Shown piece by piece: positions 14,453 through 35,850 of a DNA stretch of 58,873 nt. The notes beneath the pieces were generated by a model, which saw only the letters and a list, made by a program, of their open reading frames with translations, did no database searches and was not told where the DNA came from. This DNA is from Deltaproteobacteria bacterium (GTDB taxonomy: Bacteria > Desulfobacterota > Desulfomonilia > Desulfomonilales > Desulfomonilaceae): positions 1 through 58,873 of the forward strand of contig JAJYDQ010000016.1 of assembly GCA_021777225.1 (NCBI GenBank). Reading direction: 5' to 3'. Positions within the stretch are counted from its first letter, which is position 1. The number at the start of each line of letters is the position of its first letter. Both the position numbers and the translations under genes were made by a program.

Positions 14453-15154
14453 TTATACAACAAGATAACGTCTGACAACATCGTCATTATCCCATATCTC
14501 CGTCATGCTTCCTCCATGAACCACAGTCCCTTTCTCGAGTATATAGCCTCGGTCACACACCTCGTTACAAAAGCGCAAATTCTGGTCCGCCAAAAGTATT
14601 GTGACGCCGTGTCCCTTTATCTTCTTTATAGTTTCGAGGAGTGTTCGGACAATCAACGGCGCAAGGCCTTCCGATGGTTCGTCTAGCAGAATCAGGGTAG
14701 GGTTCATCATTAGGGATCGGCCTAAACTCAGGATTTTTTTCTCTCCACCCGAAAAACTGGAGCCCTTTTGCTTCCGGCGATCCGCCAGCAAAGGAAACAA
14801 ATTCTCAATTCTTTCTTTTGTCCAGTACCCTGACCGCCCTGATGCCCTAGCCGCAATTTCCAGGTTCTCTTCGCATGTAAGATCCGGAAAAATCCGCAAA
14901 TCATCAGGAATGTAACTTACTCCACGCTTGGCTATGACATTTGGAGCTAGTTTACAGATTTCCACACCCTCGAAGCGGATCGATCCATTCGTTGGAGGAT
15001 TTAAACCCATTATGGAACGGAGGGTAGTAGTCTTTCCCATGCCATTCCGTCCCAGCAGGGCCACTGTCTCGCCCTGTTTCACCTCAAAGGATATGTTTTG
15101 AAGCACATGAGCCGTACCATAGTAGACATCGATCTGATCTACCCGCAATACCAT
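14453..15154 (-). CDS. livF: Branched-chain-type ABC importer, ATPase LivF (cluster 1)
   Basis: One of two ATPases powering a Liv-type ABC importer. Walker A GRNGMGKTT, signature SFSGGEKKILSLGRSL, Walker B LILLDEPSEGLAP, H-loop region replaced by LLADQNLRF as usual for LivF. 233 residues. Its ATG overlaps the livG stop codon by one base (TAATG, 15152-15156), so the two are translationally coupled. The signature has GGEKK in place of the more usual GGEQQ. Confidence 0.93.
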   Translation of the reverse strand: MVLRVDQIDVYYGTAHVLQNISFEVKQGETVALLGRNGMGKTTTLRSIMGLNPPTNGSIRFEGVEICKLAPNVIAKRGVSYIPDDLRIFPDLTCEENLEIAARASGRSGYWTKERIENLFPLLADRRKQKGSSFSGGEKKILSLGRSLMMNPTLILLDEPSEGLAPLIVRTLLETIKKIKGHGVTILLADQNLRFCNEVCDRGYILEKGTVVHGGSMTEIWDNDDVVRRYLVV

Positions 15155-15912
15155 TACGCAACCTCTTCCCCAAGATAGACCTCTCGGACTTGAGGATTCA
15201 TCTTGATTTGGTCCGGCGAACCATCCCCGATTATTTTCCCCTTGTGCAAAGCGATAACTCGATCCGACAATGAAAAAACTATGTCCATGTCGTGCTCAAC
15301 GATCGCAAAGGTAACCTCGCCGGTTTGTGACAGTTCGCGGATGGTTTCCAGGATTCTAGATCTTTCCACCGGGTTCATGCCTGCTGTGGGTTCATCAAGG
15401 AACAAGAGTCGAGGTTTGGCGGCAAGAGCTATGGCCACCTCCAGAAGGCGTTGGTCCCCATGCGAAAGGGATCGCGCAACCATGTACGCCTCATCTATAA
15501 GCCCAACTTGCGTCAGGACCATCTCCACATCTTCTCGAACTTCTTTCAAATGAGCTATTGACCTAATCATACCTTTGGCTCGTCGATTAAGTGCAAGGAC
15601 AGGGATAGCCAGATTTTCAAACAAGGTTAGATTTCCAAACACATTGACGACCTGAAATGATCTTCCCAGCCCCAGCTTGACCCGCCTGTGGATCGGCTCG
15701 CGTGTGACCTCCCGTCCCTGAAACCATATTTCTCCCGAATCCGCCGCCAGTAGCCCAGTTAATACATTGATCAATGTAGATTTACCCGCCCCATTGGGGC
15801 CGATAATAGAAGTGATAACCCCTCGACAAAGGGAGAAATTTAAGTCCCTGGCCGTGACTATCGACCCGAAGGCCTTGTTCAGCATTCGAACATCTAACAG
15901 ACTCTCACCCAT
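15154..15912 (-). CDS. livG: Branched-chain-type ABC importer, ATPase LivG (cluster 1)
   Basis: Second ATPase of the importer. Walker A GPNGAGKSTLINVLTG, signature region SLSHGDQRLLEVAIALA (LSHGDQ is the LivG form), Walker B LLFLDEPTAGMNP, H-loop VEHDMD. 252 residues. About 107 bases separate it from livM upstream; I see no promoter there. C-terminal VREVYLGEEVA is the typical LivG end. Confidence 0.93.
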   Translation of the reverse strand: MGESLLDVRMLNKAFGSIVTARDLNFSLCRGVITSIIGPNGAGKSTLINVLTGLLAADSGEIWFQGREVTREPIHRRVKLGLGRSFQVVNVFGNLTLFENLAIPVLALNRRAKGMIRSIAHLKEVREDVEMVLTQVGLIDEAYMVARSLSHGDQRLLEVAIALAAKPRLLFLDEPTAGMNPVERSRILETIRELSQTGEVTFAIVEHDMDIVFSLSDRVIALHKGKIIGDGSPDQIKMNPQVREVYLGEEVA

Positions 15913-16019
15913 GTTATCCTTTCCTAATCAACGCAACTAAAGGACCCTTTAGATCATAATGGTGGGACGATAGGGTTTCGCTGCTACACTCAATTATAGC
16001 GTTTCTCTTTGTATTCGTT

Positions 16020-16973
16020 TCATGGCCGTGAATATTTCCTAAAAGCGTCTGAAATCGACCCAACTATACCACCACGAAAGCCAATGATGATTGCCAGTAA
16101 TAGCACCCCGAACCAGAACATCCAGTTGTAAGTGAATCGCTGAAGGACCTCCCGGAGAGCAACGAAAACGATACTACCGACCAAGGGTCCAGAGAAGGTC
16201 TGTAACCCACCAATAAGACTCACCAATACTGGCTCGGCCGAGTGACTCCAGTGTGCGGAAAATGGGGCGACATTACTCTCTAGCAGCGCAGACAGTGATC
16301 CGGCTAGCCCCGCAAAAGCCCCGGAGACAGTAAATACTCCCAGGCGATACGCTTTTACCGACAGACCGGCAAATTCAGCCCGAATATGGTTTTCTCGAAT
16401 GCCCGCGAGCGCCAGTCCAAACGGTGATGAGTAGATACGATGGATTAAGAAGACACTAGCCACAAAGAAAAGAAGAACGAAATAATAAAATTGGTAGTCC
16501 TTTCGGATCGGAATATTCACAATACCCAATGAAATGGCTGTGCGTGAAATTCCGTAAAGCCCATCATCACCCCCCGTAATGCTTCTAAGATTCCATATGA
16601 GGGCAAAGACCATCATACCGAACGCTAGGGTAAGCATAGCAAAATATATTTCAGTATGCCTGACACAAAAAAAACCAATGCACAAAGACAGGAGCGCAGC
16701 GGCAGTTACACCGATGAGGATTCCTAAAAGAGGATGAGCGCTTATGTGTATTGATGTTATAGCCAGCCCGTAAGCGCCGATGGCAAAGAAAGCCGCATGG
16801 CCGAATGATAGGAGTCCGGTTCGTCCCAATAGCAAATTGTATCCAAGGGCAAAAATACAGAGAATCATAATGCGTGTCGCGAGATACAGGACGAAGGGAC
16901 CACTAACGAAACCGATTCCAACCAAGGCGCCAAGGCAACCTAACATCAGGAAATATTTCCAGTATTGGTTCAT
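16020..16973 (-). CDS. livM: Branched-chain-type ABC importer, permease LivM (cluster 1)
   Basis: Inner-membrane permease, 317 residues with about ten hydrophobic segments. LivM hallmarks: YNLLLGRTGLLSFGHAAFFA, the TGGDDGLYGI loop, and the EAA-like AGIRENHIRAEFAGLSVKAYRL region that contacts the ATPases. It lies 3 bases behind livH. Confidence 0.93.
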   Translation of the reverse strand: MNQYWKYFLMLGCLGALVGIGFVSGPFVLYLATRIMILCIFALGYNLLLGRTGLLSFGHAAFFAIGAYGLAITSIHISAHPLLGILIGVTAAALLSLCIGFFCVRHTEIYFAMLTLAFGMMVFALIWNLRSITGGDDGLYGISRTAISLGIVNIPIRKDYQFYYFVLLFFVASVFLIHRIYSSPFGLALAGIRENHIRAEFAGLSVKAYRLGVFTVSGAFAGLAGSLSALLESNVAPFSAHWSHSAEPVLVSLIGGLQTFSGPLVGSIVFVALREVLQRFTYNWMFWFGVLLLAIIIGFRGGIVGSISDAFRKYSRP

Positions 16974-16976
16974 CTG

Positions 16977-17849
16977 TCAGCCTTCTGCGAAGAAACCTTG
17001 AGGACGCCATAGTAAAACAGCGGCCATAAGTCCAAACGTTAGGAACATGTCAAGCATTGGCATGAATCTCGTTCCGAAAGAACTGAGGAGGCCCACTATC
17101 AAAGACCCAAGAAACGCCCCTTTCAAGCTGCCCAAACCTCCGATAACCACAACTATGAAAGCCGAGATGATGATCGCCTCACCCATACCTGTAGTTAATA
17201 GTCCAACGTATGGGACCGCCAAGGCGCCCCCAACGGCCGAGAGCCAGGCCCCAAACATGAACACGCCTGAGTACAGTAGGGGAACATTGACACCTATGGA
17301 TAGGGCCATTTCACGGTCAGAAGCAGAAGCTCGGACTATCCTTCCCCACCAGGTCTTTTCCAATAGACCATAAAGACCAAGCGCAACGAGGGGGCCAACG
17401 GCTATGATAAAAAGATTGTAAACCGGAAATTCACGGCCTGCGATGGAAACTGACCCGGAAAGACCGGGAACGGCGGGTGACCCTATGGATCCAGCTCCCC
17501 AGATCATTTTGACAAGATCATCGAAGATCAACACCATCGCAAAGGTAAGCAATAATTGGTACGGTAGTTCCAGGTGATAAACCAGCCTTAAGAGATACCT
17601 TTCCATAACATACCCAACCATACTTACAACTAGGGGACCTAATAGAAGCCCTAACCAGAAATTCCCACCCATCGCTTTGAGGACCGCAAAACACAAATAG
17701 GCCCCCAACATATAGAAACTGCCATGAGCAAAGTTCAAAACTCGAAGGACCCCGAAAACCAGGGTTAGGCCGCTGGCTACCAGCCAAATAAACATACCTG
17801 CTGAAATCCCGGCAAGGCAGACATGGACGAGCGATTGTAACATAGACAT
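16977..17849 (-). CDS. livH: Branched-chain-type ABC importer, permease LivH (cluster 1)
   Basis: Partner permease of LivM, 290 residues, polytopic. Hallmarks: VASGLTLVFGVLRVLNFAHG near the N-terminus and the RASASDREMALSIGVNVPLL cytoplasmic loop. ATG 17849 or a second in-frame ATG at 17843 could be used; a GGAG lies 3 and 9 bases upstream respectively, so the second is also plausible. Confidence 0.93.
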   Translation of the reverse strand: MSMLQSLVHVCLAGISAGMFIWLVASGLTLVFGVLRVLNFAHGSFYMLGAYLCFAVLKAMGGNFWLGLLLGPLVVSMVGYVMERYLLRLVYHLELPYQLLLTFAMVLIFDDLVKMIWGAGSIGSPAVPGLSGSVSIAGREFPVYNLFIIAVGPLVALGLYGLLEKTWWGRIVRASASDREMALSIGVNVPLLYSGVFMFGAWLSAVGGALAVPYVGLLTTGMGEAIIISAFIVVVIGGLGSLKGAFLGSLIVGLLSSFGTRFMPMLDMFLTFGLMAAVLLWRPQGFFAEG

Positions 17850-17935
17850 CTACTCCGTGACTTATACATTTTCAATAGCTTATCTAGAGGAAACAAAGTG
17901 AGGCGCACTGCGGGCCTCACCTTGTTATTTCATGT

Positions 17936-19231
17936 CTACTTGGAATCCTTAAATGGTGGATGAGTCCCAGGCCCTTCAAATGGTGGTCGATTGAAAAATT
18001 CTTTTGCCGGAATTACTATCTGTTTGCCCATGATCTTAAAGGGATATTTCGGATCCGCTTTAGTAAGCCCCCAAGGGACCTCGTACATCGCTTGGTGATC
18101 TTCTTTTCGGAAAACGCGATGACCCGCCGGTGAATCGAGTTCCATGCCAGCTAAAGCATCAACAACTTTTCCCGTTTCCTTGGACCCTGCCGCCTCTACC
18201 GCTTTCTTGAACGCATACATTGTGGAATAGGCGGTTTCTGAAACATAGGCAGGATAATGATTCCATCGCTTGTGGAAACGGGCGACAAATTCCTTATTCC
18301 GGTCACTGTCTGGATAAAGGAAAAAATATCTTCCTGAAATCCAAATATTATCCGGCATCTCTGGACCTAGCCCTTCGAGTACATCCATCGCCGCTCCCAC
18401 AGGAAACATGACATGCTTGATTTTGTCGAATAGTCCAGCTTGCTTGGCCTGTTTTACCAGGGTAATCAGTTCACCTGCCCATACTACCGAGTATAGGCCC
18501 TCAGGTTTAGCGTCCATGATCGTGTTGATGTGGGGCCTGAAGTCTGTGGTCCCGAACGGGGCCCAAGACTCAGCGGTAAACTTTACTCCCGGTTTGAGTT
18601 TTCCGAGAGTGTCTTTAAACATGTTCCATGTGGTGTAGCCATATTCATATTTTGGATTTATGGTAGCCCATGTATTAACGGGCAAATCCTTAGCCACGAA
18701 CGCCGCCGCATTCCCGTCCTGATAAGTAGGAGTACATATGCGAAAAACCTGCTTGATTCCTTTCTTGAAAACTTCATCTTCTGTAAGTTTTTCTGTCGCA
18801 GCATGAGTGACCATTAGCACTCGATCAAGCTCGCCGACTACAGGCGCCAGCGCTAGAGCCTGACCTGATGAATCGACTCCCGCTAGAAAATCAGCCCCCC
18901 AACTATCAACAAAATAGCGAGCGTTCTGAATACATGCTGGAGCGGCTAATGTGGAGTCGCGGATCTCAAGTTCCACTTTATTCCCTGCAATCCCGCCAGC
19001 CGCGTTAATCTCCTCAACCCCCATCAGCGCTCCCATTTTGTGAAACTCTCCATAACCAGCCAGTGTACCGGAGAGCACTGTCAAGTAACCAATTTTGATC
19101 GGGCCCTTGATGTTTGGCGTCGCCGCCCACAAACCCACCGGCTTTACGATTCCGGACCCCAAAGCCGTTGCGGCTGCGGTTACCAACCCAGCCTTGAGAA
19201 AATCCCTACGCGTCGTTTCATGCTGATCCAT
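17936..19231 (-). CDS. livK: Liv-type substrate-binding protein with Tat signal (cluster 1)
   Basis: Periplasmic type I substrate-binding protein delivering ligand to LivHM. The N-terminus reads TTRRDFLKAGLVTAAATALG, a twin-arginine signal, so export is probably by Tat after folding. ATG 19231 is preferred since AAAGGAA lies just upstream. The mature part (KIGYLTVLSGTLAGYGEFHK, GVEEINAAGGIAGNKVELEI) is typical of the family. 431 residues. Ligand not predictable: this family also binds aromatic acids, amides and short fatty or hydroxy acids. The neighbours (acyl-CoA synthetase, 4-hydroxybutyryl-CoA dehydratase) point to an organic acid. Confidence 0.9.
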   Translation of the reverse strand: MDQHETTRRDFLKAGLVTAAATALGSGIVKPVGLWAATPNIKGPIKIGYLTVLSGTLAGYGEFHKMGALMGVEEINAAGGIAGNKVELEIRDSTLAAPACIQNARYFVDSWGADFLAGVDSSGQALALAPVVGELDRVLMVTHAATEKLTEDEVFKKGIKQVFRICTPTYQDGNAAAFVAKDLPVNTWATINPKYEYGYTTWNMFKDTLGKLKPGVKFTAESWAPFGTTDFRPHINTIMDAKPEGLYSVVWAGELITLVKQAKQAGLFDKIKHVMFPVGAAMDVLEGLGPEMPDNIWISGRYFFLYPDSDRNKEFVARFHKRWNHYPAYVSETAYSTMYAFKKAVEAAGSKETGKVVDALAGMELDSPAGHRVFRKEDHQAMYEVPWGLTKADPKYPFKIMGKQIVIPAKEFFNRPPFEGPGTHPPFKDSK

Positions 19232-19340
19232 ATTCTTATTCCTTTCTTTTTGGCCAAATTCAGGCCTCTTGAAATTCAGCCTTCCAGCCACCGACTAAGG
19301 ACTCTTCGCTCGGATACACTGTCTACGTAACACAACTCTG

Positions 19341-20105
19341 TCACCAGGATGTCCAGCCTCCATCAATAAATATCGTCTGACCTGTTATGAAATCTGAAGC
19401 TCTGGAGGCGAGGAAAATAGCAATCCCTGCAATTTCATCCGGCTGTCCCCAACGGCCCATTGGGGTGCGTTCAACAATAAACTGGTACCTTTCCGCATCA
19501 TTTCTCAGTTGGGCCACCAATGGAGTTTCAAAATAGGTGGGGCCAATAGCGTTAACCTGAATACCCTGTCTGGCCCATTCAATCGCCATGACTTTTGTCA
19601 TCTGTATCACCCCACCCTTGCTGGATGCGTACGCCAATTGCATGGGGAGTCCGACAGTTCCCAGGATTGACGCCATGTTGATGACTTTTCCATATGATCC
19701 GGCCAGCATATGGGGTACTACAGCCTGGGCCATCAAAAAATAGCCTTTCAGGTTGGTATCTATAACAAGGTCCCATTCCTCAGGAGCCAATTCCAGAACA
19801 GGCTTTCTGATGTTTACGCCGGCGTTGTTCACAAGGATATCGATGTGCCCAAAAGCTTCTAAAGTGGATTTTGCGGCCTCGTCCAGGGTCCTTTTGTCTA
19901 GGACATCAATGCAGAAAATCTCGGCTCTGCGTCCCAACGATTCTATCGAAGCCTTTACCGATTCAAGGTCATCGCGGTTGCGAGCGCATAGCGCCACATT
20001 CGCTCCTGCCCCCGCAAGCGCTATAGCAATTGACCTTCCAAGGCCCTTCGATGCGCCGGTTACAACGGCGACACGGTTTGTTAGATCAAACAAATCTCTA
20101 TACAT
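19341..20105 (-). CDS. Short-chain dehydrogenase/reductase (FabG-like)
   Basis: Classical NAD(P)-dependent SDR of 254 residues. Cofactor motif TGASKGLG, NNAG, catalytic Ser in NMASILG and YASSK, and the C-terminal GRWGQPDEIAGIAIFLASRA typical of the FabG/gluconate 5-dehydrogenase group are all intact. It sits between abfD and livK on the same strand, so it could oxidise or reduce the hydroxy/keto intermediate of the same pathway, for example a hydroxyacyl substrate. Exact substrate unknown. It should be compared with the degenerate SDR domain fused to TetR at the head of this operon. Confidence 0.88.
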   Translation of the reverse strand: MYRDLFDLTNRVAVVTGASKGLGRSIAIALAGAGANVALCARNRDDLESVKASIESLGRRAEIFCIDVLDKRTLDEAAKSTLEAFGHIDILVNNAGVNIRKPVLELAPEEWDLVIDTNLKGYFLMAQAVVPHMLAGSYGKVINMASILGTVGLPMQLAYASSKGGVIQMTKVMAIEWARQGIQVNAIGPTYFETPLVAQLRNDAERYQFIVERTPMGRWGQPDEIAGIAIFLASRASDFITGQTIFIDGGWTSW

Positions 20106-20173: not shown

Positions 20174-21724
20174 CTATGGCGCCACACGTCGGCAAATCTT
20201 AACCTTTTCACTTTTAAGCTTTTCAGCCACTTCATCCATGTAATCCTTTTCAGGTTTACCCACTATTTTTTCAAAAGACTCGTCACGCCGTATGCCTATA
20301 ATGGTCTCGGCAAGTGAACTTTTTTCCTGTATCCCGCTACGGCGGGCGATTATTATTTTCTGCGCCGCAGGAGACCCCGCCCCGTGCATGGCTTCGGGAA
20401 GGCCTGCCCCAACGGACATACTTTCAACGAGCCTCAACATCTTGAGTATACTTCTTACATCAACACCGTCCCTGCCGGCAAAATAGCCCGTTATTATGTC
20501 TCCCATTTCCCTGGCGCCCAAATCATCTTCAGACGGCAAAGTGATGATCTTCCCTCCGGCTATGTCTTGAGCTATGCGCATCCATTCATAGACCATTCTT
20601 GTAATGTTGAGTTTGGTAACACTGGCAAGCAAAGGATTGATGTTGTACGCGCCGGACGGCGTCTTTCGTCCCTCGTACGAGCAGGCCAGCGAACAGGACC
20701 AACAGGTCTCCGCCATAGAGGTCATTTCAGTCAGTTTATCCAGGATGTGTGACGATTTGGCGACACCATGAGCGTCCGCCAGCCAATAAGAAGCGCCGGT
20801 GACGACATCCGCCAGTCCAACCTTGCAACCACCGTAATTGGCCCTGTGATGACCCGCAAATATCTCAACGAGTTGGCCTGCAAAATCGTACTCACCGGCC
20901 ATGAATACCCTTTCCCAAGGGATGAACACATCCTTGAAAATTACCAGCGCTTCCCCACCTACGTTCGCATACTTGGGATTTCCAGTGTCCAGACTACCAT
21001 CAAGGCGACGCATGTCATTGGTCTGGCGCGCGAAAACCAGTTTGATCCCTTTCGTGTTAACCGGAGTGGCAAAAGCTACGGCAAAATCCCTGTCCTCTTC
21101 ACCCATTGCTCTGGTGGGCATAGCTATGATTTCATGAGAATTAATCACACCAGTAATGTGAAGTTTGGCCCCATTGACGATTATTCCATCGTCATTTCTT
21201 TCCGTTATATGCAGATACATGTCCGGATTTTTCTGCTGATGGGGTCTGAGGCTCCTATCTCCGCGTGCGTCTGTCATTGCCCCCGCGGACATCAGATCAT
21301 TTTCCTGAACATATCCAAGAAATTCTTTGAAGCGTTGGTGGTATGAAGTTCCAAGCTTTGCGTCCATCGCATATGTTATGACGTAAAGCGCATTGAGACC
21401 ATCAAGACCGACACATCGCTGGAAACACGTGCCGGTTTTCCGGCCCAATAAGCGCATCATTCTGACTTTATTCACTAAATCTTCGACGCTATGGTGAATA
21501 TGCGTGAACCGATTGATTGTTTTCCCTGTCAAATGCGAAGTCGCGGTCATTGTTCCCGCGTGCTCGGGGTCATGAGCCAGTTCGTATGTCATGGCCGCAG
21601 TATTTATATGAGGAGCGAACATGGGCTCGTCGACCACATTGGTGATCCTTTCGCCCATGAAGTATACATCGGGGCGTAATTCCCTAAGAGACTCTATGTA
21701 TTCTTTCCCTGTCATCATCGCCAT
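20174..21724 (-). CDS. abfD: 4-hydroxybutyryl-CoA dehydratase/vinylacetyl-CoA isomerase homologue 1
   Basis: Flavoprotein with a [4Fe-4S] cluster that dehydrates 4-hydroxybutyryl-CoA to crotonyl-CoA by a ketyl-radical mechanism. The cluster ligands known from the Clostridium aminobutyricum enzyme (Cys99, Cys103, His292, Cys299) are present one position later: Cys100 and Cys104 in TGTCFQRCVGLD, His293 and Cys300 in HRANYGGCKVG; the following Lys and the Tyr of ANYGG are kept too. The acyl-CoA dehydrogenase-like fold spans the 516 residues. AGGAGA precedes ATG 21724. It lies 21 bases behind the acyl-CoA synthetase. Conserved residues argue for an active, oxygen-sensitive enzyme, but the precise acyl substrate is inferred. 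Confidence 0.88.
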   Translation of the reverse strand: MAMMTGKEYIESLRELRPDVYFMGERITNVVDEPMFAPHINTAAMTYELAHDPEHAGTMTATSHLTGKTINRFTHIHHSVEDLVNKVRMMRLLGRKTGTCFQRCVGLDGLNALYVITYAMDAKLGTSYHQRFKEFLGYVQENDLMSAGAMTDARGDRSLRPHQQKNPDMYLHITERNDDGIIVNGAKLHITGVINSHEIIAMPTRAMGEEDRDFAVAFATPVNTKGIKLVFARQTNDMRRLDGSLDTGNPKYANVGGEALVIFKDVFIPWERVFMAGEYDFAGQLVEIFAGHHRANYGGCKVGLADVVTGASYWLADAHGVAKSSHILDKLTEMTSMAETCWSCSLACSYEGRKTPSGAYNINPLLASVTKLNITRMVYEWMRIAQDIAGGKIITLPSEDDLGAREMGDIITGYFAGRDGVDVRSILKMLRLVESMSVGAGLPEAMHGAGSPAAQKIIIARRSGIQEKSSLAETIIGIRRDESFEKIVGKPEKDYMDEVAEKLKSEKVKICRRVAP

Positions 21725-21745: not shown

Positions 21746-23422
21746 TCATTTTTTTTCACGGAGATCTTTTCTCAGGAATTTTCCTGTAAGGGTCTTGGGA
21801 ATGGCTGGCACAAATTCTACCTGCCTTGGGTACTTGTAAGCGGCCATGCGACTCTTGCAGAATGATATAATTTCATCAGCCGTCACTGTTCCTTCTGACC
21901 CTTCTTTTAAAGCCACAAAAGCCTTAACCGTCTCGCCCCTATATGAATCAGGAACACCGACGACAGCGGCTTCCCGCACAGCGGGATGTTGATATAGAAC
22001 GTCCTCGACATCCCTGGGCCAAACTTTATATCCCGAAGCGATAATGAGGTCCTTTTTGCGATCTACCAAATAGAACCAACCCTGCTCATCCATCTTCCCA
22101 ACATCTCCGGTGAAAAGCCAACCCTCCCGGATCGCGTGCGCCGTCTCCTCTGGCTTGTTCCAGTACCCGGGAACGATCATAGGTCCACGATTCACTATTT
22201 CCCCAACTTCACCCGGGGCGAGTTCACGAGTTCCCTCTTGAAGATCCATTATTTTGGAAACACAATTGGGCACTGGTAGTCCCACAGAGAGCGCTCCACT
22301 TTCTGAATCCACAGGCGCCGACTCTCCCAAGGGAACAATGTGAGATGGAGAATTGGTTTCAGTCATCCCATACACGTTATGAAGCCTTAACCCTGTCAAA
22401 TCCTCGAATTGATCCACCAATGCTTTGGATACCGGAGCCCCACCACTATACGCCTTGACAAAGCTGTCCAGACGTCTGGTCTTGATGTCAGGGTGATTCA
22501 TCATGGCGATGTACACTGTAATCGACGCGACCGTCATTGTGACTTTCCAACGTTCGATGAGCCTAAGCGCCTCGCCCGGATCAAAACGGTAAAACAGGAC
22601 AAGTGGAATACCGGCCAAGGCGGCGATGGCTGAATGGGCCACTTCACCAGTAACGTGGAAAAGCGGTGCGACACCGAGGACCACGTCATTGGAGTCTATG
22701 CGCATGGCAACTTGGTATACCCTGGCATTGAAGGCAATGTTTCCATGAGTGTTCATAGCTCCTTTGGGTTGACCAGTAGTGCCGGATGTATAGGTTAGAT
22801 ACGCTACCGTATTAGGTGTAACTTCACTATAGTCGAGAGTTTTATGCTGGTATTTCTGTAAGATATCGACAAAATTCAGGCATCCCGGAACCTTTATGCG
22901 CTTCACCCCTCTGAGGGATTCGCTTACACACACCCCCATAGGGAAAGGATCAAGAGCTGAAGTCGTAATTACATGTTTAACTTTGGTTCGATCCAGAAAA
23001 GAAAGATCCAGTGACTCTGCGATTTCATCATGAGTAATGAGCAACCTGGCGCCGGAATCATTGAAAAAATACGAGAGTTCGTGTTCCTTATACATCGGAT
23101 TTAGCGGAACCACTATCAGTCCAACTTTCCAGGCGGCATAAACGGAAATAAGAAACTGTGGAATGTTCTGAAGGTGGAGAATTATTCGATCGCCATTCTC
23201 GAGCCCCAAATCCCTAAACGCTACAGCAAGTGAATCCGATAACCGATTGACTTCTCCATATGAAATCATATGATCGAAATAATATATGGCCGGAGCGTCA
23301 GGTCTGGAACGCGCTGTTCTAAAGAAATCATCCCTAGCCGTTGCCGATCCTATTTCCAGGCTATCAGAGACCCAATCAGGGTAAGAATTCAACCAAGGCC
23401 TTTTTTCATAAATCGATTCCAT
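21746..23422 (-). CDS. Acyl-CoA synthetase (AMP-forming, ANL superfamily)
   Basis: Activates a carboxylic acid to its CoA thioester through an acyl-AMP. Motifs in order: YTSGTTGQPKGA (P-loop), YGMTET, GWLFTGDVG, DRKKDLIIASGYKVWPRDVE and the C-terminal catalytic lysine of TLTGKFLRKDL. 558 residues, usual length. Being immediately upstream of abfD it is a good candidate for a 4-hydroxybutyrate or related hydroxy-acid CoA ligase. Chain length cannot be read from sequence alone, and a medium-chain fatty-acid ligase is possible. Confidence 0.88.
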   Translation of the reverse strand: MESIYEKRPWLNSYPDWVSDSLEIGSATARDDFFRTARSRPDAPAIYYFDHMISYGEVNRLSDSLAVAFRDLGLENGDRIILHLQNIPQFLISVYAAWKVGLIVVPLNPMYKEHELSYFFNDSGARLLITHDEIAESLDLSFLDRTKVKHVITTSALDPFPMGVCVSESLRGVKRIKVPGCLNFVDILQKYQHKTLDYSEVTPNTVAYLTYTSGTTGQPKGAMNTHGNIAFNARVYQVAMRIDSNDVVLGVAPLFHVTGEVAHSAIAALAGIPLVLFYRFDPGEALRLIERWKVTMTVASITVYIAMMNHPDIKTRRLDSFVKAYSGGAPVSKALVDQFEDLTGLRLHNVYGMTETNSPSHIVPLGESAPVDSESGALSVGLPVPNCVSKIMDLQEGTRELAPGEVGEIVNRGPMIVPGYWNKPEETAHAIREGWLFTGDVGKMDEQGWFYLVDRKKDLIIASGYKVWPRDVEDVLYQHPAVREAAVVGVPDSYRGETVKAFVALKEGSEGTVTADEIISFCKSRMAAYKYPRQVEFVPAIPKTLTGKFLRKDLREKK

Positions 23423-23487: not shown

Positions 23488-24879
23488 TTAAAGAGAAAGG
23501 CGCAGTTCAGCGCCGCCGTCGCATCTTATCGTCTGCCCTGTGACATATTTGGATGAATCTCCCGCCAAAAAAAGTACGGTATTGGCAATGTCTGTGACTT
23601 CTCCCATACGCGCGGCCGGAATCTCCTTTGTTAACTGATCCGAAAGCTCCTTCTGAATCGGCGAAGGACGGATAGTCCTTATGAACCCCGGCACGATGCA
23701 GTTCACATTAACCTGGAACCCTGCCACATCCCTGGCGAATGCCAAAGTTAGAGCAATTATGGAAGCCTTGGCTGTTTCATAACCCAAAGCGTCAGCGTAC
23801 CTGTCCCATGCCCATGGAGCCAAATAGATGACTCGACCGGAGGAGCGTTTGCACATGCTTTCTCTAAGTGAAGTTATAAGTTCTTGCGCGCAGGTCACGT
23901 TCTGGTGAAACCTGCCGCCGGCGTTCAAATTTTTCCGTCCGGCGTCAGCGATCTTAAGGGCGCCAATTCCTATGTCGTGAATGTAAATGTCGGGAGGCCC
24001 AACTTCATCCTCAATTTTCTTGCAAAGCTCTGAAGACATTGGCCCGTGTTCCGAACTAAAATAACATTTCAGGTTTTCGGACCCGCCCGGATTCAAAACC
24101 GCATATTCTCGGCCCCTCTTTACTATGTCCATGTGCGCCGCCACTTTGACTCCGTGCGACAAAAGAAAAGAAATTAAAGCGGTACTCAGCACTGTTCCAC
24201 CGTTCACGACTAGCGCAGACTTGCCTTCAAGGGAGCGCCCGTCCGATTGATACTGCATGGGCGTGGAATCCGGCTCAAGTAAGCCTTGAAAAAGCAGTTC
24301 AAGAATGGTTTTCTCCACATCCAGCGCGCTGGCATATCCCCGAAGGTCCCACCTCTTTAGGACCCATGCGTCAACCATAGACTTGATCAGGTTGGCGACT
24401 ACCCGAACATTGCATGAGCGAAGTATTTCCTTTTCAACACATTCGTCCAGTATTGACTCGATGACCTCCAAATGGGCCCGTTCTTTCTTCAAGAGGCTTT
24501 TTAAAAGGGGTTTAGTTAGAATGTGGCCTTCCTGGTAGATCAGCATTATAGCGTCGGCCAGTTTGTCCATGGTGCCAAATTCGGCCCGGATCATGCGCCT
24601 AAGCTTCTCAAGAGGATCTGAAACCTGTTCCAGAGACTTTTTCATGGCCTCCATGGCTGAACTGGCGGCTAACTCATGGATCAAGAAGAATATATCCTCT
24701 TTGGATCCGACATAATCGTAGATGCTGGCCTGACTTAAACCTGTTTGCTCGGCGAGATTTCTGAGGGTGGTTTTGTGGAACCCCTTTTGTGAAAACAGAT
24801 TAATTGCAGCCAGAACGATTTGTTCCCGACGCTTCTGAACGAGTTGCGGGTTTTTGACGTTGGTGTGAATAGTGCTCAC
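23488..24879 (-). CDS. TetR-family regulator fused to a degenerate short-chain dehydrogenase domain
   Basis: Two-domain protein of 463 residues starting at GTG 24879. Residues ~14-60 form a TetR helix-turn-helix (LRNLAEQTGLSQASIYDYVG) with a TetR ligand/dimer domain to ~200. Residues ~217-463 are an SDR fold, recognisable by VNVNCIVPGFIRT and VTDIANTVLFLAGDSSKYVTG. The SDR part has lost its working residues: the TGxxxGxG motif is replaced by VNGGTVLSTAL (residues 225-235), NNAG by HDIG (301-304) and the catalytic Ser by Ala354, although Tyr367 and Lys371 remain. This suggests a sensor of an acyl-CoA or dinucleotide and not an enzyme. First gene of the minus-strand operon. Confidence 0.85.
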   Translation of the reverse strand: MSTIHTNVKNPQLVQKRREQIVLAAINLFSQKGFHKTTLRNLAEQTGLSQASIYDYVGSKEDIFFLIHELAASSAMEAMKKSLEQVSDPLEKLRRMIRAEFGTMDKLADAIMLIYQEGHILTKPLLKSLLKKERAHLEVIESILDECVEKEILRSCNVRVVANLIKSMVDAWVLKRWDLRGYASALDVEKTILELLFQGLLEPDSTPMQYQSDGRSLEGKSALVVNGGTVLSTALISFLLSHGVKVAAHMDIVKRGREYAVLNPGGSENLKCYFSSEHGPMSSELCKKIEDEVGPPDIYIHDIGIGALKIADAGRKNLNAGGRFHQNVTCAQELITSLRESMCKRSSGRVIYLAPWAWDRYADALGYETAKASIIALTLAFARDVAGFQVNVNCIVPGFIRTIRPSPIQKELSDQLTKEIPAARMGEVTDIANTVLFLAGDSSKYVTGQTIRCDGGAELRLSL

Positions 24880-24912
24880 GTTCCGGCCTGATATAGGTTA
24901 TTACCGAATGTT

Positions 24913-24938
24913 CGCTCACCTTCCGAGCGCCCGCTCAC
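24913..24938. repeat. Direct repeats CGCTCAC at the TetR-SDR promoter
   Basis: CGCTCAC occurs at 24913-24919 and 24932-24938, 19 bases apart; GCTCAC recurs at 24874-24879 over the start codon. They lie over and below the proposed -10 of the TetR-SDR gene and could be part of an autoregulatory operator. The outer ends AATGT (24908-24912, with one T more) and ACATT (24937-24941) are also complementary. Confidence 0.3.
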
Positions 24939-24966
24939 ATTAATTCCTGCGCTAGCAGATTGTCAA
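24937..24966 (-). promoter_or_regulatory. Possible promoter of the TetR-SDR/acs/abfD/liv operon
   Basis: On the minus strand a perfect TTGACA (24961-24966) is followed after 18 bases by TAATGT (24937-24942, 3 of 6). Position upstream of GTG 24879 is suitable. Confidence 0.35.
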
Positions 24967-25177: not shown

Positions 25178-26950
25178 ATGGAAAAATTAATTTACACTGA
25201 ATTGACCGACATTACATTATCCTGGTCCGACATCCTCGACGCTTCACATGACGGAATAGTGATTATAAATCGTGAGGGAATTATTCACGTCTACAACAAG
25301 GCCGCCAGACGTTTACTCGACGATGGGGATTATTCTGCGGTTGGTCGTCATTTTTCCGAGGTCCGACCGGAAACCTGGCCTGATCTGAAAAACGTTTTGG
25401 AAACCGGGGTATCACAGGTTGGTAAAAAGATTGTCCTTCCCAAAGCCACCATTATCGCCAATCGTAATCCAATTGTTGTTGACGGAAGAGTTATCGGTGT
25501 CATTAGCGTCTTTCAGGACATCTCGGAATACGAGTCAATGATTTCAAGTCTTCAGGGCTACAAAAAACTCCATCGTCAACTCGAAGCTATTTTCGAATCG
25601 TCATTTGACGGCCTGTACATCACGGATGGCAAAGCAAATACCATTCGCGTCAACAACGCTTACGAACGGATTACTCAGTTGAAACGCCAAGACCTTATCG
25701 GTCGAAACATGGTGGACCTCGTTAAAGATGGGGTCCTGGACCATTCGGTAACGCTTGACGTCCTGGAGCGTCGTGACCAGGTGACGATCATGCAAAAAAT
25801 CAAGGGGGACAAACACCTGCTGGTCACAGGAACACCCATTTTTGACGATGAAGGCCGGATAACGCTCGTAGTAACAAATGTCAGGGACATGACCCTGCTT
25901 AACGAAGTCAATGCGCAACTTGAAGAGAGCCGACGTTTGAGTTCGCGCTACTACCAGGCGTTGGTCGAACAGAAAGAATTCCGGCACGCGATGCGGGACA
26001 TGGTGGTTAAAAGCGCATCCATGGCTCAAACAGTTCAAAGAGCGATTAAAGTGGCCGTTGCTGACGCGTCCGTCCTGCTACTTGGGGAATCGGGAGTCGG
26101 CAAGAGCATGCTAGCTCGAATTATCCATATTATAAGTCCCAGAAAGGAAAGGCCCTTTATAAAAGTCAACTGTGGGGCGATACCGGAATCACTCATTGAG
26201 AGTGAGCTTTTTGGTTATGCTAAAGGGGCTTTTACCGGCGCGGCGCCTGAAGGCAAGGCCGGCCTGATTGAAATCGCCCACACAGGGACGGTTCTCCTTG
26301 ATGAAGTGGGCGAATTGACCTTGAATATGCAGGTAAAGCTGCTGCAGGTGATTGAAGAAAAGGTATTCACCCGTCTTGGCGGCACAAAGCCAATTTCTGT
26401 TGATGCCCGAATTATCGCCGCCACCAATAGTGACTTGAAAGACCTCGTTCAACAGGGGCGTTTCAGGGAAGATCTGTACTACAGGCTCAACGTAATTCCC
26501 ATCCATATCCCTGCCCTGCGAGAACGACGTGATGACATCGCGGCGCTGGCGTTAAACAGGCTCGAAAGATTCAACAGGGCGTCAGGTTGCGCCAAACGCC
26601 TCGAACAGGCCGTGATGGACAGGCTCATGTGCTACAATTATCCCGGTAACGTGCGTGAGTTGATAAATATTATGGAACGCATGATGATAATGAGCGAAGG
26701 GAATTTGATTTCCATTTCCGACCTTCCTGGGGAACTTAGGGAACAAAACCACCCCAATATTGACATGTTCGAGGATGGAATGACGTTGGGCGAGGCGGTG
26801 GAACAATTTGAAAGCCGCGTCATAGTCCGTGCTTTGGCTCACCAAAAAACCCTCCTCAGGGCTGCAAGATCGTTGGGCATCCATCCGACGACGCTGTGGC
26901 GCAAAATGACAAAACTGGGGATATCGAAGCCTAATGCATTATCGCAATAA
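25178..26950 (+). CDS. Sigma-54-dependent transcriptional activator, PAS-PAS-AAA+-Fis
   Basis: Bacterial enhancer-binding protein that remodels sigma-54 RNA polymerase using ATP. Two PAS sensor domains (about residues 15-115 and 130-240) replace a receiver domain, so it should sense a small ligand or redox state directly. The AAA+ core has Walker A GESGVGKS, the sigma-54 contact loop GAFTGA, Walker B VLLDEVGEL and the arginine-finger region FREDLYYRLNVIPI. A Fis-type helix-turn-helix (LLRAARSLGIHPTTLWRKMT) ends the 590 residues. It lies between the two Liv/AbfD arms, and a near-consensus sigma-54 promoter follows 160 bases downstream, so it probably activates the second Liv operon. Confidence 0.92.
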   Translation: MEKLIYTELTDITLSWSDILDASHDGIVIINREGIIHVYNKAARRLLDDGDYSAVGRHFSEVRPETWPDLKNVLETGVSQVGKKIVLPKATIIANRNPIVVDGRVIGVISVFQDISEYESMISSLQGYKKLHRQLEAIFESSFDGLYITDGKANTIRVNNAYERITQLKRQDLIGRNMVDLVKDGVLDHSVTLDVLERRDQVTIMQKIKGDKHLLVTGTPIFDDEGRITLVVTNVRDMTLLNEVNAQLEESRRLSSRYYQALVEQKEFRHAMRDMVVKSASMAQTVQRAIKVAVADASVLLLGESGVGKSMLARIIHIISPRKERPFIKVNCGAIPESLIESELFGYAKGAFTGAAPEGKAGLIEIAHTGTVLLDEVGELTLNMQVKLLQVIEEKVFTRLGGTKPISVDARIIAATNSDLKDLVQQGRFREDLYYRLNVIPIHIPALRERRDDIAALALNRLERFNRASGCAKRLEQAVMDRLMCYNYPGNVRELINIMERMMIMSEGNLISISDLPGELREQNHPNIDMFEDGMTLGEAVEQFESRVIVRALAHQKTLLRAARSLGIHPTTLWRKMTKLGISKPNALSQ

Positions 26951-26994
26951 GATTGCAAAATTGCTATAAATTTATATCACCTGCTCTTTATAGC
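26944..26994. promoter_or_regulatory. Candidate enhancer (UAS) with two inverted repeats
   Basis: GCAAT-AAG-ATTGC (26944-26956) overlaps the end of the activator gene, and GCTATAAA (26963-26970) pairs with TTTATAGC (26987-26994). They lie about 150-195 bases above the predicted start of the sigma-54 transcript, the usual range for activator sites. The second repeat could instead be a weak A+T-rich hairpin ending the activator transcript. Confidence 0.3.
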
Positions 26995-27113
26995 GCTATC
27001 GTGCGCAAAATGGTTCAATCGTACATATAGTATTGCATTAACGCAGTCATGCCCATTACCCTCAACGTCCCTTAATCTCATAAAATTTAGTGTGGCCGCT
27101 AATGACTTAATTG

Positions 27114-27129
27114 TGGCATATTTGTTGCT
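27114..27129 (+). promoter_or_regulatory. Sigma-54 (-24/-12) promoter of the second Liv operon
   Basis: TGGCAT-ATTTG-TTGCT at 27114-27129: GG (27115-27116) and GC (27127-27128) have the exact N10 spacing, and all conserved positions except one match TGGCAC-N5-TTGCW. The transcript would begin near 27140, about 36 bases before the livK ATG at 27176, and the gene for a sigma-54 activator lies immediately upstream. Confidence 0.7.
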
Positions 27130-27133
27130 CAAC

Positions 27134-27146
27134 GAACTAACGTTCA
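27134..27146. promoter_or_regulatory. GAAC-TAAC-GTTC palindrome at the sigma-54 start site
   Basis: GAAC (27134-27137) and GTTC (27142-27145) form a short inverted repeat containing CTAACGTTCA (27137-27146), identical to bases 24986-24995 in the divergent regulatory region. Its position over the predicted transcript start would suit repression. Confidence 0.4.
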
Positions 27147-27175
27147 AACAAACTGAAGATTCAGGAGGTAGGCCT

Positions 27176-28432
27176 ATGCTAACACGTAAATCCTGTCTGT
27201 GGGTCACGCTAGCGCTGCTGGCGTTTCTGGTCCTTTCCCTGCCTGTAGGCGCTGAGGAGAAGATAATTAAAATCGGTTCACTGTACCCTATGACCGGAAG
27301 ACCGGGTATTTATGGACTGGACTCTGTTGACGCGGCGGAAATGGCCATAGATGAAATCAATTCCAAGGGTGGCGTCAATGGATACAAGATTCAGTTGATT
27401 AATACCGATAGCAAGGCTAAACCCGATTATTCCGTAATGGTTGCCAAACGTTACATAACTCAGGACAAGGTTAATTTTCTTTTTGGCGTTGTCAGTTCCG
27501 CTGTTGGTCTGGCCGTCACTGAGGTGTCCAAGCAGCACAAAAAGATCTTTATCGGCACGGATCACGCATCTACGCAGCTCACCACCGACAAGCTGCAACC
27601 CTATTATTTCAGGGTTTCCAACAACACTTTCCAGTCAATGGCCGCAGGGGCGAAGTACCTCAAAGAGTTACAGAAAACCAAACCCTGGGTCACTATCGCC
27701 TATATCGGCCCTGATTACGCCTATGGACATGATCAATGGAATGAACTCAAATATAACCTCGACCGCTTCGGAGTCAAATACAAGGCTGTTGGAGAATACT
27801 GGCCCAAACTTTTCGCTCCTGATTACACAGCCTTTATCAGCACGATAATAAACGAAAAACCGGACATTCTGGTTGCCGGGTTCTGGGGCGGCGACACTGT
27901 GGCTTTCATTAAACAGGCTCAACCTTACGGCCTGTTCTCGAAGACCTTATATTTTTCCCCCGATGGCGGCGGCAACTATGAACTTATGGCCGCAATGGGC
28001 GCAGATCTTCCTGAAGGTCTTGTGCTCAGCGGTCGGCATCACAACAACTGGCCTGATACCGAACTCAATCGTGAATATGTGAACAAGTTCTTCAAGCGCA
28101 CGGGCCGTTATCCGACCTACGCCGCCGAAGGCGCCTACACCGGTGTCTACGCCATAGCGGAGGCGGTCAAAAAGGTTGGCAATCCTGATGACACAGAGGC
28201 CCTGGTAAAGGCTTTTGAAGGCATGAAAATCAAACTCCCCGAAGACCCGGAAGGTTTCACGTCCTATATCGATCCCAAATCCCATCAAATTGTTCAGGAA
28301 CAGGCTATCGGGGTTACCGAACCCAATGACAAATTTCCACCGGCCAAACTGATGTTGGGAAAATGGAAAGTATACAAAGCGGAAGATTTGCTCCCGCCGG
28401 CTGATTACATCGAACAACTGAAGAAGAAATAG
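27176..28432 (+). CDS. livK: Liv-type substrate-binding protein with Sec signal (cluster 2)
   Basis: Periplasmic binding protein of the second importer. ATG 27176 has AGGAGGT 8 bases upstream and lies below the sigma-54 start; the longer frame from 27092 would begin above the promoter. The signal peptide (LWVTLALLAFLVLSLPVGA) is Sec type, unlike the Tat signal of the cluster 1 protein. Mature part: KIGSLYPMTGRPGIYGLDSV, MAIDEINSKGGVNGYKIQLI. 418 residues. First gene of the livKHMGF-CoA-transferase-abfD-pxpABC series. Confidence 0.9.
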   Translation: MLTRKSCLWVTLALLAFLVLSLPVGAEEKIIKIGSLYPMTGRPGIYGLDSVDAAEMAIDEINSKGGVNGYKIQLINTDSKAKPDYSVMVAKRYITQDKVNFLFGVVSSAVGLAVTEVSKQHKKIFIGTDHASTQLTTDKLQPYYFRVSNNTFQSMAAGAKYLKELQKTKPWVTIAYIGPDYAYGHDQWNELKYNLDRFGVKYKAVGEYWPKLFAPDYTAFISTIINEKPDILVAGFWGGDTVAFIKQAQPYGLFSKTLYFSPDGGGNYELMAAMGADLPEGLVLSGRHHNNWPDTELNREYVNKFFKRTGRYPTYAAEGAYTGVYAIAEAVKKVGNPDDTEALVKAFEGMKIKLPEDPEGFTSYIDPKSHQIVQEQAIGVTEPNDKFPPAKLMLGKWKVYKAEDLLPPADYIEQLKKK

Positions 28433-28460
28433 ACTTTAGATTGTTGCGAGAGCATTCCCG

Positions 28461-29348
28461 ATGGACCCTTCGTTTATTCTAATGCAATTTCTGAGTGGAC
28501 TGATGATGGCGACACTGCTTTTTCTGGTCGCCAGTGGACTCACTCTGATATTTGGCGTAGGCAATGTTTTTAACTTCGCCCACGGCTCCTTTTACATGAT
28601 AGGGGCCTACCTCGCCTTTCAGGTTGTTTCCTCGTGTCACGCCAACTTCTGGTTATCAGTCCTTGCGGCGGCCCTTGGGGCCGGGGCCCTCGGCATGTTT
28701 GCTGAAGCGACATTTCTTCGCAGGATCTATGGCCGCTCTCAGGAGGGTGGATTTCAGATCCTGCTTACATACTCCTTCATCCTTATTATCGATGATCTCG
28801 TGAAGTTGATATGGGGAACAGAATACAAATCATTGCAACGTCCAGAAGGTTTTAAGGGAGCTGTAAACTTTTTTGGGCTGACTATTCCCTCCTACAACCT
28901 TGCCATCATTGGAATAGGAATTCTGGTCGTTGTCGTGGCGTGGCTTATTCTTTCCCGGACACGTCCGGGAAGAATAGCCAGGGCCGCGGCCCTTGACAGG
29001 GAAATGCTCGGATCACTGGGGATCAATGTTCCTCTCACCATGACCCTGGTATTTGGCATCGCCACAGCGATGGGCGGGTTTGCCGGAGCACTTGCGGCCC
29101 CCCTTCGATCCGTGTCCCCCGGGGCTGGAATTGAAGTCATAATTGACTCCCTCATTGTGGTGGTGATAGGGGGCATGGGCAACTTCTGGGGCGCCTGGCT
29201 GGGAGCCCTCATACTTGGTGAAGTGAACGCGTTCGCAATCGCCACTGCGCCGGACTGGGCGTCCCTGTTCAGCTACCTTGTAATGGCGCTGACCCTGATT
29301 TTTAAACCAGAGGGTATTTTTTCCTCACGCAGGGTCAGGAAGGTTTAG
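28461..29348 (+). CDS. livH: Branched-chain-type ABC importer, permease LivH (cluster 2)
   Basis: Polytopic inner-membrane permease of 295 residues. VASGLTLIFGVGNVFNFAHG and the RAAALDREMLGSLGINVPLT loop are the family hallmarks and align position for position with cluster 1 LivH, though the two have clearly diverged elsewhere. 28 bases behind livK, 7 bases before livM. Confidence 0.93.
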   Translation: MDPSFILMQFLSGLMMATLLFLVASGLTLIFGVGNVFNFAHGSFYMIGAYLAFQVVSSCHANFWLSVLAAALGAGALGMFAEATFLRRIYGRSQEGGFQILLTYSFILIIDDLVKLIWGTEYKSLQRPEGFKGAVNFFGLTIPSYNLAIIGIGILVVVVAWLILSRTRPGRIARAAALDREMLGSLGINVPLTMTLVFGIATAMGGFAGALAAPLRSVSPGAGIEVIIDSLIVVVIGGMGNFWGAWLGALILGEVNAFAIATAPDWASLFSYLVMALTLIFKPEGIFSSRRVRKV

Positions 29349-29355
29349 CCGCCCT

Positions 29356-30315
29356 ATGAAGACCCCCGAAGCAATCAAGGAATTTGGTTTTTGGTCCCTA
29401 TTTTTTCTGATTTTCGGACTGGCTCCGATACTCGACAACTCCGAATACCATCTCATGCTTGCCACCCACATCCTGATCTGGGGCATGTTTGCGGTCGCTT
29501 TCAACATGTTGTTCGGAGTCACCGGTATGCTGTCTTTTGGCCAGGCCCTGTATTATGGGGTCGGCGCCTACTCGGTTGGCCTGCTGGTAAGGGGTTTTGG
29601 GGACACATGGTTTCTGCCCTCGATTATTGTAGGGCTCCTGGTGGCTGTTGCGGTTTCGGTACTTTTAGGACTTCTGGTCATTCGTGTCAGTGGGGTCTAC
29701 TTCACGGTCCTCACGTTGGCTTTCGGACAGTTGGCCTGGCAGGTTACTCTGAAATGGTATCACTTCACAGGGGGCGATGACGGCATTCAGAGTATCATTC
29801 CGCCCGGATTGCTCGGAAATAATCGTGTTTATTACTGGTTCACCCTGGCCCTGGTGGCCCTATCAATCCTTGCGTTAAAACGTCTGGTCAATTCCCCGCT
29901 CGGACTAACTTTACGCTGTATCCGGCAAAACCCTGAAAGGGTGCGCTTCCTCGGACGCCGAGTTCGCCGCAATGAGCTTCGTGTCTACGTTGTTTCGTCT
30001 TTTTTCGCCGCATTGGCAGGATGCCTGATGGCAGGCGCAGACAACTCAATTCATCCTGACATGTTCTACTGGACAACGTCCGGAGAAGTCATTCTTATGG
30101 CGGTCATAGGTGGCATAGGTCAATTCTTTGGCCCATTCATCGGAGCCGCGGTGATCATCATAATCCAGGATTATGTCGGGGCTCGAACCGAGTATTGGTC
30201 TCTAATAATAGGCCTGATCATGATGACGATGGTCCTCCTGTTCCCTCAGGGACTGGTCGGTGAGATTCGATCTTTACGAACACGTCTTGTGTCCGGCGAG
30301 AGGAACCGGAGTTAA
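29356..30315 (+). CDS. livM: Branched-chain-type ABC importer, permease LivM (cluster 2)
   Basis: 319 residues, about ten hydrophobic segments. FNMLFGVTGMLSFGQALYYG, the TGGDDGIQSI loop and RCIRQNPERVRFLGRRVRRN are the LivM marks. It ends one base before the livG ATG at 30317. Confidence 0.93.
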   Translation: MKTPEAIKEFGFWSLFFLIFGLAPILDNSEYHLMLATHILIWGMFAVAFNMLFGVTGMLSFGQALYYGVGAYSVGLLVRGFGDTWFLPSIIVGLLVAVAVSVLLGLLVIRVSGVYFTVLTLAFGQLAWQVTLKWYHFTGGDDGIQSIIPPGLLGNNRVYYWFTLALVALSILALKRLVNSPLGLTLRCIRQNPERVRFLGRRVRRNELRVYVVSSFFAALAGCLMAGADNSIHPDMFYWTTSGEVILMAVIGGIGQFFGPFIGAAVIIIIQDYVGARTEYWSLIIGLIMMTMVLLFPQGLVGEIRSLRTRLVSGERNRS

Positions 30316-30316
30316 A

Positions 30317-31072
30317 ATGGACGCTATTTTAACCCTTGACTCTGTAACCAAATCGTTCGGCGGCCTGCGAGTCACCTCGGGCGTGAGTTTTTCAATAGAC
30401 AGAGGAAGTATCTCGGCGATAATCGGCCCGAACGGGGCCGGAAAGACCTCCCTGTTCAATGAAATAACCGGATACCTTAAACCCGATAGCGGCAGGATAA
30501 TTTTTCAGGGCGCAGAAATTACGAATCTGAGCACGCGTGAAATCGTGGCCCGAGGTATGGGACGTGCATTTCAGGTCACATCATTTTTTCCGGAAGAAAC
30601 TGTGCTGGACAATGTTCGTGTGGCGTGTCTATCCAGAATGGATTTGACTAGAAAGTCCATCAAGAGCGTTTCCCGATTCACTAAGGCCACTGACAGGGCG
30701 GTGAGCATCCTTGAGAGCCTGGGTCTTGACAAATACGCGAAACGGCCTGCCTTCGAACTGGCGCACGGTGATCAAAAACTGCTCGACATCGGGATCGCCC
30801 TGGGGATTGAGCCCAAAATGTTACTTCTGGACGAGCCCACTGCGGGTATGTCTCCTGAAGAACGATTACTTACTCGAAATTTGATCCAGAAACTGTGGAA
30901 AGAATTTAATCTCACCCTGCTATTTATCGAACATGATATGGACACGGTCTTTGGGATCGCCCAGACTGTCAGGGTCCTTCAAACCGGAAGGCTACTGGCT
31001 GAGGGGACTCCGGAAGAAATAAGGAACAATCCTGAAGTGGTTACCGCGTATCTAGGTGAGGAGGTTTTTTGA
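30317..31072 (+). CDS. livG: Branched-chain-type ABC importer, ATPase LivG (cluster 2)
   Basis: Walker A GPNGAGKTSLFNEITG, signature ELAHGDQKLLDIGIALG, Walker B LLLDEPTAGMSP, H-loop IEHDMD. ATG 30317 is preferred over an upstream frame that would overlap livM by 56 bases. 251 residues, ending YLGEEVF. The stop overlaps the livF start. Confidence 0.93.
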   Translation: MDAILTLDSVTKSFGGLRVTSGVSFSIDRGSISAIIGPNGAGKTSLFNEITGYLKPDSGRIIFQGAEITNLSTREIVARGMGRAFQVTSFFPEETVLDNVRVACLSRMDLTRKSIKSVSRFTKATDRAVSILESLGLDKYAKRPAFELAHGDQKLLDIGIALGIEPKMLLLDEPTAGMSPEERLLTRNLIQKLWKEFNLTLLFIEHDMDTVFGIAQTVRVLQTGRLLAEGTPEEIRNNPEVVTAYLGEEVF

Positions 31073-31773
31073 ACTATATCCTCGAAGTAGCAGGAATGGA
31101 TACGTTTTACGGCCGGAGCCACATCCTTTTTGATGTCAGTCTTTCCGTGGCCCAAGGCGAAACGGTCTGTCTCATGGGTCGGAACGGGGCGGGTAAAACA
31201 ACTACCTTTCGATCGATAATGGGGCTAACCCCTCCGAAAAGTGGAAAAGTGATTTTTAAAGGTAAAAATTGCGCTGGATCGCCGTCCTTCAGGATGGCCC
31301 GCATGGGAATGGGATTCGTCCCCGAAGATCGCCGTATTTTCGGGCCGTTAACGGTTCAGGAAAATCTGGAACTGGGAATAATTGCCCGCCGACCTGGGCC
31401 ATGGAACACGGAAACGGTCCTGGCGAGATTTCCAATCTTGCAGCGTTGCAAGGACCGGCTCGGGGGATCTCTTTCTGGCGGAGAGCAGCAGATGTTGACT
31501 ATCGCCAGAGCGCTTATGGGCAATCCTGATCTGTTGGTGTTGGATGAGCCCACAGAAGGACTTGCCCCGGTCATCGTAGATGTTTTGAAGGAACTCATAG
31601 TGGGTTTGAAACAGTCCGGCGCCACCATTCTGCTTTCAGAGCAGAATATCCGGTTCGCTACAGCGGTTTCGGATCAAGTGGTAGTAATTGATAAGGGGCA
31701 CATCGTGTACACTGACACAATACAAGCCTTTAAGGACCAGGACTCAATTCGGAAGAAATACCTGGCCGTTTGA
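31069..31773 (+). CDS. livF: Branched-chain-type ABC importer, ATPase LivF (cluster 2)
   Basis: Walker A GRNGAGKTTTFRSIMG, signature SLSGGEQQMLTIARAL, Walker B LLVLDEPTEGLAP, LLSEQNIRF. TTG 31069 is the start, preceded by GAGGAGG and overlapping the livG stop by four bases. 234 residues, ending KKYLAV. The 228 bases that follow before the CoA-transferase hold no gene I can support; a short GTTC-CAAAA-GAAC repeat at 31946-31958 is too small to interpret. Confidence 0.93.
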   Translation: MNYILEVAGMDTFYGRSHILFDVSLSVAQGETVCLMGRNGAGKTTTFRSIMGLTPPKSGKVIFKGKNCAGSPSFRMARMGMGFVPEDRRIFGPLTVQENLELGIIARRPGPWNTETVLARFPILQRCKDRLGGSLSGGEQQMLTIARALMGNPDLLVLDEPTEGLAPVIVDVLKELIVGLKQSGATILLSEQNIRFATAVSDQVVVIDKGHIVYTDTIQAFKDQDSIRKKYLAV

Positions 31774-33354: not shown

Positions 33355-33418
33355 TCTGGAGTTGAAACAGTCCATGAGAATGTCTTAATTTTTATTCAAC
33401 GAAAGGAACACAATAGCC

Positions 33419-35769: not shown

Positions 35770-35850
35770 ATCCATGGCATGTCAATTATCCCCTGGGTAA
35801 GAATGAAATCGGTCGAGACAGCATTTGAGACTACGAACAGATAGAGATGG

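Follow-up and report, generated by a model that had tools for sequence, protein, structure and literature searches.

Regulators of the MocR/GabR/PdxR group combine a GntR-type winged helix-turn-helix (wHTH) with a domain of aminotransferase fold (PMC6917764, PMC5320631). In the window, the whole stretch of 58,873 nucleotides analysed here, we find a repressor and an enzyme fold joined from other families, a TetR-type protein that runs on in the same frame into a short-chain dehydrogenase/reductase (SDR) domain (Table 1). TetR repressors of the FadR, PfmR and KstR2 type are autoregulated and belong to acyl-CoA pathways; Bacillus FadR (1vi0/3whb), Thermus PfmR (3vpr) and KstR2 (4w97) are the solved proteins closest to residues 1-205 of the fusion. 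We found no description of a TetR-SDR fusion or a TetR-pseudoSDR regulator in the searchable literature, to which most subscription journals do not belong. From its sequence and surroundings, we consider it fairly probable that this protein of sulfate-reducer-type (Desulfobacterota) bacteria is an autorepressor of TetR type, specific to one pathway, that has taken up a FabG-like SDR as a regulatory module without catalytic function. Through one unique double site in the genome, it appears to control an operon for hydroxy-acid degradation.

Table 1 Features of the fusion gene, its operon and its upstream region (window coordinates)
Feature	Position	Strand	Basis and remarks
TetR-pseudoSDR fusion gene	23488..24879	minus	463 aa, uninterrupted frame, GTG start
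TetR_N helix-turn-helix, residues 21-65	24685..24819	minus	Pfam PF00440, 4e-13
TetR_C_24 ligand/dimerisation domain, residues 88-200	24280..24618	minus	Pfam PF17932, 3e-9; solved relatives FadR, KstR2
FabG-like pseudo-SDR domain, residues 216-457	23509..24234	minus	Ser to Pro at 355; Gly and NNAG motifs altered
Acyl-CoA ligase (AMP-binding)	21746..23422	minus	Pfam
AbfD-type (4-hydroxybutyryl-CoA dehydratase-like) flavin/Fe-S dehydratase	20174..21724	minus	1u8v at 5e-159
Intact operon SDR, in a clade apart from the fused SDR	19341..20105	minus	Pfam, tree, motif alignment
ABC importer, branched-chain amino acid type	14453..19291	minus	Pfam; binding protein 17936-19291, two permeases, two ATPases
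Probable double operator	24905..24937		Pair of 14-bp palindromes, spaced 19 bp centre to centre
Probable -35 element (TTGACA), operon promoter	24961..24966	minus	Read from upstream regions of the fused members

Architecture and distribution of the fusion protein

A Pfam domain-architecture search places TetR_N, TetR_C_24 and SDR in one protein, with all matches, including the SDR models over residues 222-457, above the curated cut-offs; within the SDR half, adh_short_C2 covers residues 284-457 (2e-26) and adh_short residues 222-403 (1e-10). The protein has the features of the TetR family, an N-terminal TetR_N helix-turn-helix and a helical ligand-binding C domain, and the profile of this half matches solved TetR proteins along its whole length. 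Among solved structures, the N half is best matched by TetR proteins and the SDR half by FabG; a PADLOC search gave no match. An AlphaFold2 model computed from a 20-sequence alignment (mean pLDDT 78.9) is helical in its N half and has a Rossmann fold in its SDR half, the pTM of 0.52 rendering their relative arrangement unreliable. Residues 212-460 of this model align with solved FabG chains with Z up to 25.6; the structure comparison in effect covered this part only, and sequence profiles served to assign the TetR half. The full-length SDR fold described in the earlier note is thus confirmed by the model, and the single continuous TetR-SDR frame by the Pfam domains and by homologues in other genomes.

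Independent assemblies contain this one-piece protein at 18 further loci, with identities down to 39%; full-length homologues are found in close genomes at 79, 69 and 67% and, at 48%, in a second family of the phylum. The GTDB genome collection holds 16 loci with the fusion. Five of 395 sampled genomes of the phylum have a fused member, at 325-362 bits, and none of these 395 yielded a free SDR closely similar to the fused domain, the top free SDR reaching 147 bits. Matches spanning both halves all lie in records titled Deltaproteobacteria or Desulfobacterota groups, and the GTDB genome scan, relying on two short peptide patterns, returned no full-length fusion from other phyla. In Desulfosarcina widdelii PP31, whose chromosome is complete, there are two tandem copies (L032:6208-7590 and 7986-9368), of which only the second is preceded by the double operator.

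One plasmid match covering both halves was rejected as a fusion, as it consists of two separate genes: the Phocaeicola massiliensis record (L109:5995-7371) holds a tetR (199 aa) and an intact fabG (248 aa) that share a frame and are separated by 30 bp. This pair could illustrate a possible route to the fusion, rather than its descent. Two genes arranged like this could become one if a stop were lost. The earlier note had reckoned with two genes joined by a frameshift or an assembly error. However, the same join in the 18 other loci, independently assembled and including a complete chromosome, rules out assembly error and shows that the fusion is a product neither of chance nor of misassembly; together with the purifying selection on the SDR half, it leaves a misassembly or recent frameshift with virtually no probability. 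The fusion is real and conserved.

Sequence and origin of the SDR half

All 20 fused members have Pro in place of the catalytic Ser (P355 in the window copy); 8 have Phe instead of the catalytic Tyr and 4 have Arg or Gln instead of the catalytic Lys. The catalytic Asn is kept in 19. The glycine motif TGxxxGxG reads VNGGTVLS in the window, with N226, V230 and S232 at the three Gly positions. Its typical form in the fused family is VNGGTVLG, with Asn and Val for the first two glycines in most members and the third glycine, Ser in the window, kept in 18 of 20, while NNAG has become HDIG in the window and HDxG in the family. These cofactor motifs are altered in all fused members but normal in the free SDRs and the operon SDR of the same alignment. 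By the classical SDR criteria, the Rossmann fold is present, and the cofactor motifs and the catalytic Asn-Ser-Tyr-Lys set are not intact, in agreement with the earlier note, which had reported the glycines, the NNAG motif and the catalytic Ser as missing. It had also stated that Tyr367 and Lys371 are retained. Both are indeed present in the window copy, but the two positions are unconstrained across the family, so they are no sign of retained chemistry. An SDR half that is still an active reductase, making the protein a trigger enzyme, would draw on these two residues and on Asn327; we regard it as most improbable, given the invariant Pro at the Ser position, the Tyr and Lys replacements elsewhere in the family and the changed cofactor motifs.

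The dN/dS of the SDR half, from non-saturated pairs only, is 0.11-0.18, indicating purifying selection. As judged from its sequence, the SDR half is catalytically dead yet kept by selection. Mean identity among the fused domains is 34% in the cofactor half and 52% in the C half, compared to 47 and 55% in free SDRs. The active-site loop (APWxWD) and the PG loop, which normally lines the nicotinamide site, are the most conserved parts and exceed free SDRs in this respect, while identity is only 18% in the β2-β3 region, on which the choice of cofactor depends. The C-terminal segments 426-457, which we take to be one classical SDR dimer interface, are as conserved as in free SDRs; two long helices, presumably the other classical interface, diverge faster in the fused members than in free SDRs.

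FabG-type classical SDR reductases share the fold of the fused SDR half and are its closest sequence relatives, but they keep the catalytic and cofactor motifs, whereas the fused SDR has lost them and is found only joined to TetR. A tree of 48 SDRs places the fused domains in a single clade (SH-aLRT 100) apart from that of the operon SDRs, and a topology uniting the two is rejected (AU p=0.0155); although long branches prevent the tree from pinpointing the exact FabG-like parent, it rules out the intact operon SDR, which the earlier note had suspected to be the source. No unfused tetR/SDR precursor pair was identified in the phylum, an SDR gene lying near one stand-alone TetR relative only (L083). 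The stand-alone protein most similar to the fused TetR half (L082:1491-2129, 238 bits), located between TRAP transporter genes, has neither an SDR half nor the usual operator, and may mark a pre-fusion state or a loss.

The operon and its probable operator

Downstream of the fusion gene lie, on the same strand, the acyl-CoA ligase, the AbfD-type dehydratase, the intact SDR and the co-directional ABC importer, which is kept in loci L031 and L030 and probably forms the end of the operon. The Fe-S ligands of the dehydratase are C100, C104, H293 and C300, invariant in seven homologues, where we presume the ligand set (three Cys and one His) of the C. aminobutyricum enzyme. An AbfD-type gene adjoins most fused copies, often along with a ligase, an operon SDR or a TRAP importer, and AbfD-type or ligase genes adjoin nearly every one. 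The dehydratases beside distant fused members are only 36-37% identical to that of the window, so substrates may differ among members.

A divergent cluster on the plus strand of the window (25178-37571) comprises a sigma-54 activator with PAS domains, a second Liv-type ABC importer, a CoA-transferase-family gene, a second AbfD-type dehydratase (33419-34864) and LamB_YcsF, CT_C_D and CT_A_B, the three parts of 5-oxoprolinase PxpABC; it perhaps encodes a route from a gamma-lactam to a 4-hydroxyacyl-CoA.

Common to the upstream regions of the fused members are two palindromes (YGANYRNNYRNTCR, 14 bp each) separated by 5 bp; shortly upstream of them, a TTGAC[A/T] stands at the matching place in 18 of 20. 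The double palindrome has a single match in the window and in the 4.04-Mb genome, none in the reversed control and none in shuffles, and is the probable operator of the fusion protein. In a uniform scan, a score of at least 18/20 at spacing 19 was reached by 16 of the 20 fused members, the other four remaining below 18, by none of 32 stand-alone TetR relatives and by one of 1040 Markov sequences, the pattern having been read from the same data on which it was scored. Instead of two palindromes at 19 bp, the stand-alone relatives in the phylum have one compact operator, in 28 of the 32 an 18-bp site made of two 14-mers offset by 4 bp; with the fused family being one clade, this contrast represents one correlated evolutionary change, not many. 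A -10-like element at about 24938-24943, touching the operator, is weak, and a consensus promoter scan did not find the operon promoter.

The compact 18-bp operator (such as TGAACGAGCGCTCAGTCA) is found at promoters of stand-alone TetR relatives across the phylum (L017-L024, L046, L083-L108) and also in a Methylomirabilota genome (L046), apparently marking a large unnamed regulon family. One stand-alone relative adjoins a B12-dependent acyl-CoA mutase-like gene, as judged by eye.

Proposed mechanism and comparison with known regulators

The probable operator lends support to the repressor logic of the earlier note. In the mechanism we propose, the repressor would, without substrate, occupy the double operator beside the -10 of its own promoter, blocking an operon for the activation and dehydration of a 4-hydroxyacyl-type substrate (CoA ligase, AbfD-type dehydratase, SDR and importer), until an acyl-CoA intermediate of the pathway releases it. 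The pseudo-SDR half would bind a ligand in its rebuilt active-site pocket, link two TetR dimers on the two palindromes, or both. We infer from the genomic evidence above that the palindromes are the operator, that the protein represses, what its SDR half does and that an acyl-CoA is its effector; this effector is likely because of the operon context and the solved relatives of the TetR half, including FadR and KstR2, which we take from family knowledge to be acyl-CoA-responsive. Thus, of the two ligand sites envisaged in the earlier note, an acyl-CoA site in the TetR half is plausible, but a dinucleotide site in the SDR half is weakened by the changed hallmark motifs and by a cofactor half that diverges faster than in active SDRs.

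For the SDR half, conservation of the pocket speaks for a ligand, the doubling of the operator and the conserved C-terminal segments for a bridge; both may hold. A half that serves only as an oligomerisation bridge would bind no ligand and join two TetR dimers for cooperative binding to the two palindromes, all sensing being left to the TetR C domain. This would account for a doubled operator found only in fused members, for the conservation of segments 426-457 and for the relaxed cofactor half, but a mere bridge would not need the highly conserved active-site and PG loops, and the faster divergence of the long helices of the other interface weakens the idea of a tetramer; we hold this reading to be possible rather than probable. 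Sensing of dinucleotides by the SDR half, with NAD(H) or NADP(H) bound without turnover as in a redox sensor, is possible but not favoured. The Rossmann fold, the PG loop and the mostly retained third glycine are compatible with it, yet Asn and Val at the first two glycines, HDxG in place of NNAG and the poorly conserved β2-β3 region argue against it, making it distinctly unlikely. Tentatively, the pseudo-dehydrogenase might be a ligand-gated clamp, in which a (4-hydroxy)acyl-CoA in the rebuilt pocket lets the SDR dimer interface lock two TetR dimers on the doubled operator. If so, the repressor would have two ligand sites, and the gain of an enzyme domain and the doubling of the operator would have co-evolved.

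Should the preferred reading of a non-catalytic regulatory module be true, SDRs, one of the largest enzyme families, would join the short list of enzyme folds that became regulatory domains of repressors. Fused and stand-alone operator geometries then offer a natural contrast, and the step from enzyme to regulator would be directly testable. The fusion is also a marker for operons with AbfD-type radical dehydratases in anaerobes, and could possibly serve as a biosensor. Among the described systems, acyl-CoA-responsive repressors such as FadR, PfmR and KstR2 are the closest to its N-terminal half, but lack an SDR domain. As in MocR, GabR and PdxR, a whole enzyme fold that is no longer metabolic would act as the regulatory domain of a one-component regulator. 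However, the fusion is not a member of that group: in place of a GntR wHTH and an aminotransferase fold it has a TetR DNA-binding domain, with a ligand domain of its own, and an SDR fold, such that neither domain is common to both, and while MocR proteins keep their cofactor, the fused SDR has lost its cofactor motifs.
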